Of a stretch of DNA of 27,354 nucleotides, positions 5,939-27,354 are shown piece by piece. The notes beneath the pieces were generated by a model. That model was not told the DNA's origin. It worked only from the letters and a program-made list of their open reading frames with translations, and ran no database searches. Made by a program: the position numbers and the translations under genes. Source of the stretch: a virus; the IMG/VR virus record IMGVR_UViG_3300009378_000046, positions 1-27,354 of that record; one strand, 5' to 3'. How positions within the stretch are numbered: the first letter of the stretch is position 1; every line of letters begins with the position of its first letter.

Positions 5939-7349
5939 ACAACTGACGACAGTCGGCGATCCGTCCCTAGCGTTCATTGACATGAGCGTGAACTGGCCTA
6001 TGCTCGCTGCACTCCGTGGAGGCACCTTTGCGATGCGCGCTGCGGACGAGAACTTTCTGCCTCGGGCCGAGGGCGAAAGCCGGTTGAAGTACGAGACGCG
6101 TCTAGCGAGTTCGTTCCTGTTTGAGGCCTACGACGATACCGTAGGTATGATTGCCTCACAGCCGTTCACCAAGCCTGTGAGCCTCCAAGGCCCCGATCTT
6201 CCGCAAAGAGTCTCTGAACTCTGGTCGAACATCGATGGCCGCGGAATGCGCATGACCGATTTTGCGTCTGCGCTCTTCGACGACATGGTTGATCGTGGTC
6301 TGAGCCACGTATTCGTTGACTTCCCGAACACCGGTGGTTCGCAGACCGAAGCGCAAGAGCGTCAGGGAGGCATCCGTCCGTACCTTGTGCACGTCAAGGC
6401 CGAGAATATGATCGGTTGGCGAACGCGCGTTGCGAACGGACAGACGATCCTCGAGCAAATTCGCTTTAGGGAGTGCACCGTCGAGCCTGATGGCGATTTC
6501 GGCGAGATGCCTGTTGAGCGCGTTCGAGTGTTCAACGCTGACGGCACGTGGGAAGTCTGGAAGCACGTCAAGGCGCATAAGGATAAGTGGGTGCTTGAGA
6601 ACAGTGGAGCGCACACGTTCAAAGGCATCCCCCTCGTGACTGTCTACTCTTCTCGCACCGGGTTCATGACCGCGAGTCCGCCACTCGAGAAGATTGCTTG
6701 GTTGAACGTTGAGCACTGGCAAAGCGCTAGCGATCAGCGGAACATCCTACACCACGTGCGCGTCCCCGTCTTCTTCCGTGCGGGCTTTACCGAGGAAGAG
6801 TTGGCCAAGGACGTCGTGCTTGGCGCTGGCACCGGCATCGGTTCGACTAACCCTGAAGCCACTGCGAAGTGGATTGAATCGCAGGGTAGCGGAGTCAAAG
6901 TCGGTGCTGACGACCTTCGCACGATCGAGCAGCGGATGGAAGTACTCGGTGCAAAGCCGTTCATGCCGACGCGGACCGGTTCAGTGACCGCGACTGCTCG
7001 CGTGATCGACGAGAAGAAGACGCATAGCAGCGTCCAGGCCTGGGTGCGCGCGCTAGAGATCGGTCTGCGCGAGACATTGGTCATTGCGGGTCAATGGGTC
7101 GGTGAGACGCTTGACGACAAGACGCAAGTCGCCGTGTTCAACGAGTTTACGCTCGCTACTCGCGCTGCTGACGACAACAAGACGCTCATCGAACTCTACC
7201 GCGAGAAGGGTATCGATCGCACGACGCTGCTCGAGGAGATGAAGCGCCGTGGTGTCCTCTCCGAACTGGTCGATCCTGCGCAAGTCAGCGACGCGGTCCT
7301 CGACGAATTGATGCAAGAGTTGGGAGGCGATCTTGGCGACAGCGAGTAA
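5931..7349 (+). CDS. Portal protein (DUF4055-like)
   Basis: Dodecameric portal that forms the DNA channel at one capsid vertex and seeds head assembly. The 472 residues fit a DUF4055-type portal: an N-terminal segment with FLPRAEGES and YETRLASSFLFEAY, a stretch ending TVGMIASQPF, a middle region with SDQRNILHHVRVPVFF, and a C-terminal helical part (RTGSVTATARVIDEKKTHSSVQ) typical of the crown and stem. Its place between terminase and the MuF-like gene is standard for portals. I am more certain of the portal role than of the exact family. The TTG start of the next gene lies 17 bases before this stop. Confidence 0.78.
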   Translation: MARQLTTVGDPSLAFIDMSVNWPMLAALRGGTFAMRAADENFLPRAEGESRLKYETRLASSFLFEAYDDTVGMIASQPFTKPVSLQGPDLPQRVSELWSNIDGRGMRMTDFASALFDDMVDRGLSHVFVDFPNTGGSQTEAQERQGGIRPYLVHVKAENMIGWRTRVANGQTILEQIRFRECTVEPDGDFGEMPVERVRVFNADGTWEVWKHVKAHKDKWVLENSGAHTFKGIPLVTVYSSRTGFMTASPPLEKIAWLNVEHWQSASDQRNILHHVRVPVFFRAGFTEEELAKDVVLGAGTGIGSTNPEATAKWIESQGSGVKVGADDLRTIEQRMEVLGAKPFMPTRTGSVTATARVIDEKKTHSSVQAWVRALEIGLRETLVIAGQWVGETLDDKTQVAVFNEFTLATRAADDNKTLIELYREKGIDRTTLLEEMKRRGVLSELVDPAQVSDAVLDELMQELGGDLGDSE

Positions 7350-9987
7350 GGTCGTCCAGAGCGTAAACGATGCTCTGCAGAGTCGTGCAATTCGACACGG
7401 CTTCTTCCTGTCCCGCGTAGGGAACGGGAACGCTGCTCGTATTGTCCGCATGCTCGAGCGGGATGTATACCCGAACTTGACCGCGCAACTGCTCGCTGGT
7501 ACCGCGAAGCACGCTGGCATCCCGATGAGCCGAATCACGCGTTTGAAGTCATACCAAGCGCTTATGGCCAAATCGGACACGATCATCCGAGACGGAATGA
7601 CCGCGGCCAAGCGTGCATTGACTACTGATTTGAAGGGACTGGCAGGCGTCGAGGCGAATTTCGCCAAGCGGGCCATCGCCGGGGAACTGGGAGTCTCGCT
7701 GGGGTTGATCGCACCGAACATTCCGATCCTCAATGCGATCGTGACTTCGCAACCGTTCCAGGGTCAACTGCTCGGTGAGTGGTTCTCTGGGCTGAAGACT
7801 GCTGCGCAAAGGCGCGTTCGCTCTGCGGTCAACATCGGGCTTGCGCAAGGCGAGTCGAACCAAGCAATCGCGCGTCGACTGAAGTCCGCGCTGAAGACGA
7901 CTTCCCGGCAAGCAACCACGATCGCGCGAACGGCGACGACGCACGTCAGCAACCAAGCGCGCGAAGCAACCTACAGTGAGAATAAGGACGTCGTTAAGGG
8001 CGTTCGCTATATCGCCACTCTCGATGCGCGCACGTCCGACATTTGCGCATCGCTGGACGGACGGGTATTCCCCGTAAACGAGGGCGAACGTCCTCCGATG
8101 CACCACCAATGCAGAAGCACGACGGTGCCTGTCCTTAAGAGCTGGAAGGAACTAGGTCTCCCGCTGAAAGAGGGGCAGCGGGGTTCTCGGGCTGCTAGTT
8201 CCTTCTGGCGCTCCACGCCCAAGAAGACGAAAGAGTTCTTCGCGAACCTCTCCGCTAAGGAACGGCGTGCGATGCGCTTGCGGTTAGAGGGCCAAGTACC
8301 TGCAAAGCAGACCTACGGCACCTGGCTCCGAAGCCAAACTGCAGCGATGCAGAACGAGGTACTTGGCACGCGTCGTGGACTGATGTTCCGGCAAGGACGC
8401 ATCGGTGTGAAGGACCTCGTCAATGCTGAAGGACGCACTCTTACGCTCGCCGAGCTCGAGGCAGCCGAGATGCGCATTGGGTCGTCCTTCGGTGGCTCCA
8501 AAATGCGTGTTCTGTACACCAAGGGCGACTTGGCCGCGTTGGATGTCGTTCCTAGTTTGGACCGCACGCTTGCGATGGACAAGTACAAGCGAGCAGCGAC
8601 CCTCGTTGACGGAGACCCTGCTGCCGCAGTCGCTTGGTCGGGTAAAGGCGCGCAAGTCGAACTCGCCTCTGTGCAATTCGTCGAGAGCGCGCAAGTGCAA
8701 GCGGCAATGGACCGGAGCCTGATGTGGGCGCTTGACGACGCGCTTCGCACGGGCAAGACGATGATCTACTCCGGCACCGACGATGCGATTTTCAAGTACC
8801 TTGTCGATCACGGATTCGACGCTGGCGCGTTCCGTCAACCGACGATGAGCGCGCTCGACATCATCAAACTCCGCACCAAACTCTCTGCGAAGTACGGAGT
8901 CAAGGACTTCCCGCAGCGACTTTGGCACAAGTCGCTTGGTGGTCCTGGTCGTGTCGTCAAGCCGAAGCCGAAGCCGAAGCCCACACCGAAGCCGGAGCCG
9001 AAGCCTGCTCATAAGAAGCGCGTGGTCAAGCCGGATCCGGAACCGTATTACCCGGACAACAGGCGCGCAGTCCTTGAAGCACGCGAAGCAGAGTCCGCTA
9101 CGCATTCATTCCTTCCAAACCCTGCGTCACCGAATGTGAAAACCCTACTCGCTGAGTTCGAAAAACTCAACGTGCAAGGGCTCGATAGGATTAACGAGCG
9201 CATTCAAACGATCGCACGAAAGCAGCGGGACATTTACCGCAAGACGCAGGACTACATGCGTCACGGCGGTCAAGAAACGGCGCCAGAGTACAAATTGTTC
9301 CAACGTAAGCGTACCCAACTCGCTGCAGACATGAAGGAAGCAGAGCAAGCGAAGGAGACTGTTACCAACGCGGCCAACAAAGTCTTCCACGAAGCGATGT
9401 TGGTTAAGGATCCGGTTACGATCGAGTTGAAGTTCGCTAACGCGGTGGCGCCGTGGGAGCAAAGTCAAGCGCTCGAGGCAGCGAAGTTCATGGGCGACCG
9501 TCTAAGCGCTAGCACGTTCGGGACAGACAAGATAACGATCAAGGTCGCAAGGACTCGTAGGAGCCGTTCGTCCTATACCCCTGGTAGGTTGACGATCAAC
9601 ATGGCGCTCCATGCCCCTACGAAGACTTTTGTCCACGAACTCGCGCACGCGCTTGACGACACGTTGATACTCGGTGCGCGGAAGGTCGGCGCGCCTAACT
9701 CACCGATGAACATGGACGCCATTGCTTTCCTGAAAAGGCGCACGGCAGGTGAACAAGTACAGAAACTGCGCGACATCACCGGCATTAGCGGATACGCGCG
9801 ATCCGAAGTCGCGTGGAAGGACGACTTCATCGAGTACTACATGGGTCGAGACTATCGCGGTCAAGCAACTGAATGCTTTTCGATGGCCGCTGAGATGTTG
9901 TTCACGGACCCGGCGAAACTCGCGAGACTTGACTCCGACATGTTCGAATGGATGATTCGTCACTTCCAGGGGTTGCCGCCGCAATGA
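7333..9987 (+). CDS. MuF-like head protein fused to a C-terminal HExxH metallopeptidase domain
   Basis: An 884-residue composite. The TTG start at 7333 is fixed by GGGAGG five bases upstream. Residues about 1-375 are a Mu gpF/SPP1 gp7-type head morphogenesis protein, with LDARTSDIC (230-238) and PPMHHQCRS (254-262), then the usual YGTWLRSQ and LTLAEL segments. Residues about 380-535 are a separate domain with a faint acetyltransferase-like pattern (speculative). Residues 543-558 are a KPKP linker. Residues about 590-884 end in a zincin-like domain: VHELAHALDD (H768, E769, H772) and, 75 residues later, ATECFSMAAE, giving E847 as probable third zinc ligand. MuF proteins enter the capsid, so the peptidase is probably virion-borne cargo or an injected effector. 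Maturation protease is the alternative. Confidence 0.85.
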   Translation: MATASKVVQSVNDALQSRAIRHGFFLSRVGNGNAARIVRMLERDVYPNLTAQLLAGTAKHAGIPMSRITRLKSYQALMAKSDTIIRDGMTAAKRALTTDLKGLAGVEANFAKRAIAGELGVSLGLIAPNIPILNAIVTSQPFQGQLLGEWFSGLKTAAQRRVRSAVNIGLAQGESNQAIARRLKSALKTTSRQATTIARTATTHVSNQAREATYSENKDVVKGVRYIATLDARTSDICASLDGRVFPVNEGERPPMHHQCRSTTVPVLKSWKELGLPLKEGQRGSRAASSFWRSTPKKTKEFFANLSAKERRAMRLRLEGQVPAKQTYGTWLRSQTAAMQNEVLGTRRGLMFRQGRIGVKDLVNAEGRTLTLAELEAAEMRIGSSFGGSKMRVLYTKGDLAALDVVPSLDRTLAMDKYKRAATLVDGDPAAAVAWSGKGAQVELASVQFVESAQVQAAMDRSLMWALDDALRTGKTMIYSGTDDAIFKYLVDHGFDAGAFRQPTMSALDIIKLRTKLSAKYGVKDFPQRLWHKSLGGPGRVVKPKPKPKPTPKPEPKPAHKKRVVKPDPEPYYPDNRRAVLEAREAESATHSFLPNPASPNVKTLLAEFEKLNVQGLDRINERIQTIARKQRDIYRKTQDYMRHGGQETAPEYKLFQRKRTQLAADMKEAEQAKETVTNAANKVFHEAMLVKDPVTIELKFANAVAPWEQSQALEAAKFMGDRLSASTFGTDKITIKVARTRRSRSSYTPGRLTINMALHAPTKTFVHELAHALDDTLILGARKVGAPNSPMNMDAIAFLKRRTAGEQVQKLRDITGISGYARSEVAWKDDFIEYYMGRDYRGQATECFSMAAEMLFTDPAKLARLDSDMFEWMIRHFQGLPPQ
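8959..9006 (+). repeat. Lys-Pro repeat linker in the MuF fusion
   Basis: Forty-eight bases of AAGCCG-type repeats encode sixteen residues alternating lysine with proline, with one Thr and one Glu substitution. Such chains are stiff and exposed. The tract cleanly divides the capsid-associated part of the protein from the peptidase part, as expected for a modular fusion whose C-terminal cargo can be exchanged. Confidence 0.85.
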
Positions 9988-24743: not shown

Positions 24744-25769
24744 ATGGCTCAACTACACGAGAAGATCTACGACGCACCGGCACCGATCCTAGAGATCGTC
24801 GATGTTGGTCCGCTCTTCCCTGGACACGAGCAAACGCCTGGTGTCTACCTTTGTGCAGAGCAGCCGAACATCACCGCTGACCACACGAAAGCAACGCCGC
24901 CGGCAATCGTCTATCGGAGTTTCGATGAGGGGACGAATTGGGACCAAATCGCCGTTCTGGATCAAATGGTCGAGCATGGGCTGCTTGGACCCGCGGAATC
25001 CGACACGATTGTCCCGTCAGTCGGCCACCTCAAGACGCAAAGCGCAACGCTACCATTCGGGTGGGATACTGCGAGCGAACTAGACGTAACGTTCGCGAAG
25101 TCCTATACGCCCGAGACTGCGCCAGAGCTTGAAGTGCTTAATGGCGCGAATCGTTTGATCGTCGGTAAGGAGGTGCTGCAGTTTAAGACAGCGACGCTTG
25201 ACGAAGCAGCGGTAAACGCGTACACGCTCACAAACCTCTTAAGAGGCACACAAGGCTCCGAAACGGTGCTTTCGGAGCTCACGGCGGGCGATCGCGTGCT
25301 TGTCGTGTCTCCGGACACCTTCCACTTCCTTGCGCTCAACCCCGCGGACGTCGGGACGACCCTCTATCTGAAGGTTGTGTCGCCCGGTCAAGCATTGTCG
25401 GACGTCGCGCAGATCACGCACACAGTCGAAGCGCTAAACGTCTCTCCGTGGGGGCCGGCGACTGTGGCTGGAAGCCGAGATGGGAGCAACAACCTGACGA
25501 TCACGTGGAATCGACGCACGCGGGCGACCGTTCGGGCGTTTGGGGTGCAAGGAAGGCCTCTATTCGAGGATTTGGAGACGTACGAAGTCGACATTTACGA
25601 CTCCGTACCTGCTGTCGTGCGCACAATCACAGTGACCACTGAGTCAGCAAGTTACACAGCAGCCCAACAAACAACCGATGGACTCACACCAGGCGATCCG
25701 GTCAGCCTCAGAGTCTACCAAACATCGCGTCTGACTGACCGCGGACGCCCTGCAATCGCAACTGTCTAA
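24744..25769 (+). CDS. Tail tip protein, C-terminal part of a gp15-like system
   Basis: A 341-residue protein whose ATG lies two bases after the previous stop. It contains the block YTLTNLLRGTQGSE and later ITWNRRTR, both usual in the C-terminal half of gp15-type proteins. A fibronectin-like C-terminus (SPWGPATVAGSRDG, EVDIYDSVPAVVRTITV) completes it. The two genes together look like one longer protein divided in two. No frameshift motif is seen at the border and the new start is in frame 3 while the previous gene is in frame 2, so I read it as real gene fission. Confidence 0.7.
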   Translation: MAQLHEKIYDAPAPILEIVDVGPLFPGHEQTPGVYLCAEQPNITADHTKATPPAIVYRSFDEGTNWDQIAVLDQMVEHGLLGPAESDTIVPSVGHLKTQSATLPFGWDTASELDVTFAKSYTPETAPELEVLNGANRLIVGKEVLQFKTATLDEAAVNAYTLTNLLRGTQGSETVLSELTAGDRVLVVSPDTFHFLALNPADVGTTLYLKVVSPGQALSDVAQITHTVEALNVSPWGPATVAGSRDGSNNLTITWNRRTRATVRAFGVQGRPLFEDLETYEVDIYDSVPAVVRTITVTTESASYTAAQQTTDGLTPGDPVSLRVYQTSRLTDRGRPAIATV

Positions 25770-26443
25770 TGACGACCACTCCGAACCTAACGCTTCCGCT
25801 GCTCACGCCCGGTCAGACCAATGCCGAGGCAACGTTCAACACTGGTCAGCGCGAAGCAGACGCGCTCATCAACCTCAAAGTCGAGTCTGACGCGCTCTCT
25901 GCGCCTCCCGGCGGCGAGTCTGATGGCGAAGCATGGATCTTGTCTGCAAGCGGTACGGGTGCTTGGGCTGGATTCGCTACGGGATCGATCGCGTTGTACC
26001 TCAACAGCGCTTGGACGAACAAGACACCGCAAGGCGGACAGACAGCTTTCGTCGTCAACAAGAAGGCCATGTACTGCTACTCGAGCGTTGAGTCGCTTTG
26101 GTATCCGGTACAGCCGCGTTGGGACACGAGCGAGTACTGGACTGGTCGGTACGGAAGCAACGGAACGAAACTCTATCGCAAGTGCTTCGACCTCGGCGCG
26201 CTTCCGAACAACACGACCGCGACGACCGCGCACTCGATCACGAGCTTGGACATCAGCGAGCACGTCGAGACCGAGTTGAGTTTCCAAGACGGGTCGAAAC
26301 TCTATGGCGGCGAAGCGGCGTTCGTGACTGGAGGCGCGATCCTCGAGATTTGGTTGGACACGACCAACATCAACGTGAAGGACAACGCTAATTTGTCGAC
26401 GTACAGTGCGAAACTCGCAGTCACTTACGAGCGAGACGGTTAG
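25769..26443 (+). CDS. DUF2793-like tail tip or fibre protein
   Basis: A 224-residue protein starting in a TAATG junction. Residues about 1-105 match the DUF2793 pattern: LTLPLLTPGQTNAEATFN, LKVESDALSAPPGGESDGEAWIL, and GTGAWAGFATGSIALYL with a WTNKTPQGGQTAFV segment. Residues about 110-224 are a distinct beta-rich domain (EYWTGRYGSNGTKLYRKCFDLGALP, then IEIWLDTTNINVKDNANLS) likely to be the exposed receptor-contacting or capping part. It is the last gene of the tail module and is followed at once by a hairpin. Confidence 0.75.
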   Translation: MTTTPNLTLPLLTPGQTNAEATFNTGQREADALINLKVESDALSAPPGGESDGEAWILSASGTGAWAGFATGSIALYLNSAWTNKTPQGGQTAFVVNKKAMYCYSSVESLWYPVQPRWDTSEYWTGRYGSNGTKLYRKCFDLGALPNNTTATTAHSITSLDISEHVETELSFQDGSKLYGGEAAFVTGGAILEIWLDTTNINVKDNANLSTYSAKLAVTYERDG

Positions 26444-26459
26444 CGCCAAAACATTGGCG
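26444..26459 (+). terminator. Short hairpin right after the last tail gene
   Basis: A perfect six-pair stem (CGCCAA/TTGGCG) with an AACA loop, starting one base after the TAG stop. It lacks a U-run, so it is a weak terminator or processing site closing the tail operon. Confidence 0.5.
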
Positions 26460-26481
26460 GGGACTGAGTGGCCGCGTCGGC

Positions 26482-26490
26482 GTAAAATAC
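26482..26490 (+). promoter_or_regulatory. GTAAAATAC promoter-like box, copy 1
   Basis: The nonamer GTAAAATAC occurs here and again at 26788. TAAAAT (26483-26488) would serve as a -10 box and puts +1 near 26494-26495, exactly at the GTG of the next gene, so its mRNA could be leaderless. No consensus -35 is seen at 16-18 bases. Confidence 0.5.
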
Positions 26491-26494
26491 CGAT

Positions 26495-26722
26495 GTGGCC
26501 ACTCTGCTGACCTTCCACCGCATCGCCGATGCGCGCGCTTACGCCCGAGCAATCGGACGTCCGTGGGCCGAGATGGAGTACGTCCTGATCGCGCGCCGAG
26601 TTGAGACTGGGACTCAATCTCAAAGAGCAACCGCGATGCGCGGAGAGGTGGTCCTGGCCCCAAGCAAGGGCGAAACGGAGCGCGAGTCGCTGTGCATCGC
26701 TGTTGCGTCCCTAAGTCCTTAG
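26495..26722 (+). CDS. Small hypothetical protein, possibly leaderless
   Basis: A 75-residue ORF from GTG 26495. No SD precedes it; the promoter-like box lies directly upstream, which is why a leaderless start is considered. The sequence (FHRIADARAYARAIGRPWAEMEYVLIARRVE) has a helical N-terminus, followed by a basic and polar C-terminus. The stop codon lies inside the left arm and loop of the long hairpin. No family recognised. It is outside the tail operon, in what may be the start of a different transcription unit. Confidence 0.5.
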   Translation: MATLLTFHRIADARAYARAIGRPWAEMEYVLIARRVETGTQSQRATAMRGEVVLAPSKGETERESLCIAVASLSP

Positions 26723-26740
26723 AAACAAAGGACTTAGGGA
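26708..26740. terminator. Perfect 13-pair inverted repeat
   Basis: TCCCTAAGTCCTT (26708-26720) and AAGGACTTAGGGA (26728-26740) pair perfectly around AGAAACA. The stop codon of the preceding small gene overlaps the loop. No U-run follows on either strand. It could be a bidirectional stem-type terminator, a transcript stabiliser or a protein binding site. Confidence 0.65.
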
Positions 26741-26787
26741 AATTCAAAGTTCTGGAAAATTATCCAGTTTTGGCCTCTCCGGCTGGT

Positions 26788-26822
26788 GTAAAATACAACG
26801 TGTGTGCGTCAAACCGACGCAC
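26788..26822 (+). promoter_or_regulatory. GTAAAATAC box, copy 2, with 5' leader hairpin
   Basis: GTAAAATAC (26788-26796) repeats copy 1. With TAAAAT as -10 the transcript would start near 26801. Directly there, GTGCGTC-AAACC-GACGCAC (26804-26822) makes a perfect seven-pair hairpin, which would cap the 5' end of the mRNA of the next gene. Upstream lies a small inverted repeat, CTGGA...TCCAG (26752-26767), a possible operator. Confidence 0.5.
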
Positions 26823-26841
26823 CCTACCAAACAGAGACAGC

Positions 26842-27072
26842 ATGAACAAAACCGAACGCACCCTCAAGATCACCGCGCAGCAGGAAGACCTCCTGGCCGA
26901 GATCGAAGCGCTTGACGAGCTGATCGAGGAGTACGAGAGCGAGATCGAGGATGCCGAAGAGAACGACGCCGAGCCTGAGTCGGCCACGATCTACCGGGAC
27001 CTCGAAGTCGCCAAGGAGGACCGCGACGACTTCATCAACGAACTCCCCGAAAGGCTTCGTCCTGCCGCCTAA
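26842..27072 (+). CDS. Small acidic coiled-coil protein
   Basis: A 76-residue protein starting MNKTERTLK. ATG 26842 is chosen because the longer frame from 26692 would read through the hairpin and the promoter-like box. Residues about 12-45 are a strongly acidic coiled coil (EDLLAEIEALDELIEEYESE), followed by a second helix and a short basic tail. There is no clear SD; ACAGAGACAG lies directly before the ATG and reappears before the next gene. No family recognised. Confidence 0.6.
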   Translation: MNKTERTLKITAQQEDLLAEIEALDELIEEYESEIEDAEENDAEPESATIYRDLEVAKEDRDDFINELPERLRPAA

Positions 27073-27103
27073 CAGCAACAGAAACAGCAACAGAGACAGA
27101 GAC

Positions 27104-27354
27104 ATGACTTACGCCTACACCGTCAAGAACATCAGCACCAACAAGCGCCTCTCCGAGGAGACGGAATGCTTCAGCCTCGACCTCTTCAAGGGTCGGACGA
27201 AACTCGGAGACGTCTCCAACCGCGGATGCGGAGGCCCCAACGAGTGGGGACTCAAGCACGAAGACGCCGACGCCTTCCTCGCGTGGGCTGAGGTGGAGTT
27301 GAAGGCGCAGATGGAAGCCGTCGAGAAGTCGTGGGGCTTCAAGTGCGAGCACGA
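27104..27354 (+). CDS. Hypothetical protein, truncated by the window end
   Basis: An open frame from ATG 27104 to the end of the window, at least 83 residues with no stop. It begins MTYAYTVKNISTNKRL and contains KLGDVSNRGCGGPNEWGLKHEDADAFLAW. The preceding leader is a purine-rich CAACAGAGACAGAGAC repeat almost identical to that upstream of the previous gene. Codons end in C or G more regularly than in the tail genes. The family is not recognised. The gene is credible because of its codon regularity and the shared leader. Confidence 0.6.
   Translation, partial: MTYAYTVKNISTNKRLSEETECFSLDLFKGRTKLGDVSNRGCGGPNEWGLKHEDADAFLAWAEVELKAQMEAVEKSWGFKCEH

Follow-up and report, generated by a model that had tools for sequence, protein, structure and literature searches.

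A possible read-through switch with a promoter-like box in a start-codon hairpin at the end of a siphophage-like tail operon

The window analyzed here is the whole linear virus record IMGVR_UViG_3300009378_000046 (27,354 bases), whose plus strand carries one siphophage-like late operon with genes for an MT-A70 methylase, a DUF4055 portal protein and a P22-type coat protein and a tail region with gene-transfer-agent-like parts (i.e., Rcc01698_C and DUF2460). The last tail gene, at 25769–26443, encodes a DUF2793 protein (Pfam match, 8.5e-17), and the record has a single boundary between the tail genes and the genes that follow. Unless stated otherwise, all features of the window described below are on the plus strand. 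The contig also encodes an HTH_3 protein (1829–2713; family match, 1.7e-7). A search for tRNAs found none, and Rfam gave no match at gathering score. We noticed that the long C-terminal part of the Phage Mu F-like head protein encoded at 7333–9987 contains HELAHALDD, which is presumably a zincin-protease-like motif.

Three small open reading frames (ORFs) lie beyond the DUF2793 gene: a 75-codon ORF with a GTG start (26495–26722), which is separated by non-coding gaps of 51 nt and 119 nt from its upstream and downstream neighbors, respectively, a 76-codon ORF (p76; 26842–27072) and an 83-codon ORF that is cut by the contig end (p83; 27104–27352). Their coding scores, computed with a model that was evaluated on its own training genes, were 0.113, 0.532, and 0.425, respectively. 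True frames had a mean score of 0.299 per codon and a 5th percentile of 0.099, and wrong frames had a mean of -0.334, a 95th percentile of 0.001 and a maximum of 0.259. The 75-codon ORF is thus at the low edge of the range of true genes and is a probable gene; its first 25 codons are gene-like (0.128), while its last 12-codon windows score negative. Its GC content of 64% is equaled or exceeded in 5 of the 350 overlapping contig windows, and no homologue was found in the phages, plasmids, viral contigs, related loci and protein families searched. Matches to p76 in phages, viral contigs, related loci and protein families were no better than weak, as were those to p83 in the same collections and in plasmids, the best being the distant matches to LR756511 (E-value of 5e-4) and L154 (27%). 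Two other candidates were rejected, as a minus-strand ORF at 26421–26747 scored -0.368 and an upstream extension of p76 from 26692 was non-coding (-0.316).

An earlier start in the frame of the 75-codon ORF is barred by an in-frame TAA within the promoter-like box described below. No Shine-Dalgarno sequence is visible before GTG 26495, and the in-frame ATG at 26573 could serve as an alternative start of this gene. We also observed an ATG at 26493 that is out of frame, shares bases with the GTG (i.e., ATGTG) and opens a five-codon frame that ends with TGA (26493–26510). The leaders of p76 and p83 (26830–26842 and 27071–27103) have in common AACAGAGACAG just before the ATG, and the gap between p76 and p83 is a run of AACAG-type repeats with no clear Shine-Dalgarno sequence.

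Each of the two non-coding gaps contains the box GTAAAATAC. As the earlier note had reported, both copies are exact (copy 1 at 26482–26490 and copy 2 at 26788–26796) and have GG-x upstream, which is GGC for copy 1 and GGT for copy 2. The core TAAAAT (26483–26488 and 26789–26794) is found at only these two places on both strands of the contig, each just upstream of an ORF. By convention, TAAAAT as positions -12 to -7 of a promoter places GTG 26495 at +1, and by the same standard spacing the RNA from copy 2 would start near 26800–26802. The -10 hexamer alone matches TATAAT at 5 of 6 positions. Sigma-70 promoters have -35 and -10 hexamers 16–18 nt apart, and the promoter scan listed neither copy among its sites; by eye, the best -35 candidate of copy 1 is poor (GGGACT, 3 of 6), and none was seen for copy 2 (at most 1 of 6 at 16–18 nt). 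The T4 late promoter, which is read by a phage sigma factor, has the sequence TATAAATA; the box of the window, GTAAAATAC, is not a late promoter of the T4 kind.

The exact 9-mer is expected 0.013–0.031 times under Markov models. Allowing one mismatch leaves the number of matches at 2, where 1.42 would be expected; this is not unusual, as 43 of 100 shuffles gave as many. Shuffling of the two gaps (51 and 119 nt) produced a shared exact word of at least 9 nt 57 times in 2000 and a match at 11 of 12 positions, as seen between the two copies, 2 times in 500. The repeat of the box is moderately beyond chance for these two gaps, with its significance judged post hoc. Across the whole contig, 208 overlapping rows of 12-nt pairs within 320 nt were alike at 11 or more positions, of which 14 were A+T-rich. 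The box is not supported as a promoter motif common to a phage group, as 4 occurrences of the 9-mer in 150 related loci compare with an expectation of 4.7; it should be noted that most of these loci were fetched by portal or tail gene and need not include the operon boundary.

Further analyses revealed that copy 1 is at the loop of a 15-pair RNA hairpin (26466–26504) with two G-U pairs and a 9-nt loop (26481–26489), whose arms are GAGTGGCCGCGTCGG (26466–26480) and CCGATGTGGCCACTC (26490–26504), and that the 3′ arm includes GTG 26495. The earlier note had overlooked this start-hiding hairpin around copy 1, and its finding changes the mechanism proposed. The stem is the longest of the contig, stems of at least 15 pairs occurring on average 0.125 times per shuffled contig, and the predicted fold of 26460–26510 has a free energy of -29.9 kcal/mol (z of -6.2) that none of 200 shuffles reached. 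The contig has 15 TATAAT-like sites (at least 5 of 6 matches), and none of them except copy 1 is surrounded by a stem longer than 7 pairs; for copy 2, the best such stem reaches 7 pairs.

The predicted cost of opening the start region was computed alike for 25 starts, i.e., those of 22 selected ORFs and the three small ones, taken as the listed first codons, some of which are possibly wrong. In the read-through RNA, the region of GTG 26495 (-6 to +8) is the most closed of the 25, with an opening cost of 19.1 kcal/mol, and the next has a cost of 13.4 kcal/mol. For the GTG codon alone, the cost is 11.3 kcal/mol in the read-through RNA, compared with 0.1–5.5 kcal/mol for the other 24 starts. In an RNA that starts at 26493–26495, this cost is reduced to 2.0 kcal/mol, so that the GTG in its own RNA would fall within the ordinary range. 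In RNA started at 26495, the codon is still mostly paired, with an unpaired probability of only 0.26.

Four other hairpins are found between the tail gene and p76. Directly 3′ of the tail gene stop codon is a 6-pair hairpin (26444–26459; -8.2 kcal/mol and z of -2.6 for 26440–26465). The perfect 13-pair inverted repeat that the earlier note had placed between the two boxes was recovered as a Watson-Crick hairpin over the stop codon of the 75-codon ORF (26708–26740; arms 26708–26720 and 26728–26740; -21.1 kcal/mol and z of -5.7 for 26700–26748); it is the longest stem without G-U pairs and the sole such stem in the contig, and 40 shuffled contigs contained none. A weak 5-pair hairpin followed by TTTT (26752–26771; -7.3 kcal/mol and z of -2.2 for 26745–26775) is absent from the terminator-scan list. 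The perfect seven-pair leader hairpin noted previously 3′ of copy 2 is present at 26804–26822 (arms 26804–26810 and 26816–26822). None of the hairpins of the region has a full U-tract, and the scan for intrinsic terminators listed no terminator-like site on the plus strand within 26443–26842. The proposal that this region ends the tail operon and launches a new one is thus borne out in part: the DUF2793 gene ends at 26443 and is followed by new co-directional genes and by boxes placed like -10 elements, but the terminator that an operon end could imply is not seen. We also observed that TCCAG at 26763–26767 can pair with an upstream CTGGA or partly with CTGG at 26783–26786, so that two mutually exclusive small hairpins are possible within 26752–26786 in read-through RNA, and that TTATCCAG is located at 26760, which we take to resemble a DnaA box.

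Relatives were sought with the portal and tail proteins in viral contigs and in genomes, the latter giving one weak match (L158). A single close relative covering the boundary was found, L089, with identities of 64% in the 581-residue tail protein and 71% in the DUF2793 protein; L155 (43%) ends inside the tail protein, short of the boundary. According to the ORF list of L089, its DUF2793 gene is followed by ORFs in the opposite orientation, and the end of the first of these is only a few bases away from the DUF2793 stop codon. In MW202621 and MW202657, two phages that are more distant, the tail genes likewise run up against an operon on the other strand. None of the three thus has an arrangement like that of the window, with its co-directional small genes. 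Neither the box, nor a comparable geometry of box, hairpin and start, nor a homologue of any of the three small ORFs was found in L089.

Based on these features, we tentatively propose, with somewhat less than even confidence, that the boxes act as -10 elements in a pair of promoters where the tail operon ends, that the gene behind copy 1 is silenced on read-through RNA and that copy 2 starts a new operon. RNA polymerase would use copy 1 to transcribe a small, GC-rich and moron-like added gene (26495–26722). Late read-through RNA from the tail genes would fold the 15-pair hairpin, which would hide the GTG and keep the gene silent, while the RNA from copy 1, with its +1 at or beside the GTG, would lack the left arm and may be translatable, possibly as a leaderless message. 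A leaderless start at 26495, as suggested before, fits this geometry. The 13-pair hairpin may bound the 75-codon gene at its 3′ end. Copy 2 would start the next operon, whose mRNA would begin with the 7-pair stem-loop, probably for protection of the 5′ end, followed by the open ATG of p76; this ATG (26842) has a predicted opening cost of 1.85 kcal/mol and is the easiest to open of the 25 starts scored. Points in favor of the proposal are the restriction of TAAAAT to the two boxes, the stability and rarity of the 15-pair stem, the closed GTG and the open ATG of p76, the coding scores of the three small ORFs and the likeness to T4 described below. The use of the boxes as promoters is the weakest link in the proposal, and further points against it are the codon that stays mostly paired in its own RNA, the overlapping ATG 26493 and the alternative ATG 26573, the low-edge coding score of the 75-codon ORF and the absence of the box, the geometry and the small ORFs from L089. 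The narrower idea that a -10 element in a hairpin loop acts as a one-piece switch appears unlikely. In such a switch, the loop carried by read-through RNA would silence the gene, while initiation at the box would drop the left arm and give a leaderless message with a 5′ GUG; the geometry of T4 would then have been reached independently, with leaderless instead of Shine-Dalgarno translation.

The switch is best regarded as a sequence-based hypothesis from a single genome and as a variant of a geometry known in phage T4. For T4 e, soc, 49, and I-TevI, among others, a hairpin covers the initiation region in RNA started far upstream, and its left arm is missing from RNA made at a nearby late promoter (PMC2988022; PMC3014915). 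As in the gene e type so described, a -10-like box lies just upstream of a small gene in the window, a strong hairpin is predicted in the read-through RNA and any RNA started at the near box would lack the left arm; a stable hairpin over the initiation region of upstream-started RNA, which characterizes gene e and I-TevI, is found here by prediction only. There are also differences. What is hidden in T4 is the Shine-Dalgarno sequence and/or the AUG, whereas in the window the GUG is in an arm, TAAAAT is at the loop and the RNA would be leaderless; and the silenced read-through RNA is early or middle in T4, whereas it would be late tail RNA here. A 5′ GTG has been described as sufficient for leaderless translation in mycobacteria and as giving under 10% activity in E. 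coli (PMC4633059). The weakness in E. coli counts against the leaderless reading. A limited literature search returned no paper on phage leaderless late-promoter hairpins at start codons. If true, the proposal would mean that read-through start-hiding, best known in T4-like phages, has arisen elsewhere as well and can operate with leaderless messages, so that a gene acquired downstream of a strong late operon could keep its own timing. A -10 element in a hairpin loop with a start codon in the 3′ arm would be the signature to look for in other phages.

A rather unlikely alternative, in our view, is that only copy 2 acts as a promoter and its leader hairpin is protective, whereas copy 1 is a mere hairpin loop that shares the 9-mer by chance and the 15- and 13-pair hairpins are elements for processing, stability or weak termination. 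Shared 9-mers do arise in the shuffled gaps, the loop position by itself would explain an A+T-rich stretch, and stems that are the longest of their kinds in the contig stand at both the start and the end of the ORF. This reading has to set aside the rarity of the 11-of-12 match, the restriction of TAAAAT to the two boxes and the predicted +1 that falls exactly at the GTG. The 5′-terminal stem-loops of ompA and papA protect mRNA (work cited in PMC3997798); the leader of copy 2, whose predicted RNA would begin 2–4 nt before the 7-pair hairpin, resembles them in layout only.

The boundary could also be a moron-like cassette or another recombination junction, where some signals are left over and read-through control is lacking, which we regard as quite unlikely. 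The term moron originally meant a complete transcription unit added to a genome, according to the SPP1 paper (PMC6316719). Its odd composition and the hairpin at its stop codon make the 75-codon ORF moron-like: it is a small gene that follows a structural gene and has a promoter-like box before it and a hairpin after it, with hairpins on both sides, and it is absent from the same place in one close relative (L089). In the window, however, the hairpin lacks a U-tract, the promoter is putative and the read-through hairpin falls outside the moron definition; the cassette would also leave the register of hairpin, box and start codon unexplained. Still less probable is a DNA operator, in which a repressor, perhaps the phage HTH protein, binds the 15-nt dyad and blocks the copy 1 promoter. 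The center of the dyad does coincide with the -10 element. Two of the 15 pairs are G-U, however, which are fine in RNA and mismatched in a DNA dyad (87% complementary), and the operator reading is not helped by the short best stem around copy 2.

Returning to the proposed switch, the hairpin-box-start geometry was scanned for in 156 sequences (the window and 155 loci). Stems of at least 9 pairs gave 27 rows, some of which repeat one place and one of which is the window. Other stems of at least 13 pairs are in L054 (15 pairs, A+T-rich), L032 (14 pairs) and L051, L071, and L149 (13 pairs each); that of L032 has TAAAAT and an ATG at the stem end and is terminator-like by eye. No relative of the hairpin-box element of the window was recognized by eye among the stems scanned in the 155 loci.

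Homology of the copy 2 leader to two promoter-leader cassettes of L089 is unproven, as the alignment scores were equaled in 449 and 107 of 2000 shuffles, and 199 and 23 of 7704 sliding pieces of L089, pieces over the leaders included, scored as high. The two cassettes, on the minus strand at L089:13317–13415 and L089:15417–15515, are 91% alike over 99 nt, and each consists of TTGACC-17-GATAAC (by eye), a small hairpin and an ATG before a different gene. The copy 2 leader and the L089 cassettes have the same layout, i.e., a -10 element, about 10 nt, a hairpin, about 20 nt and an ATG.
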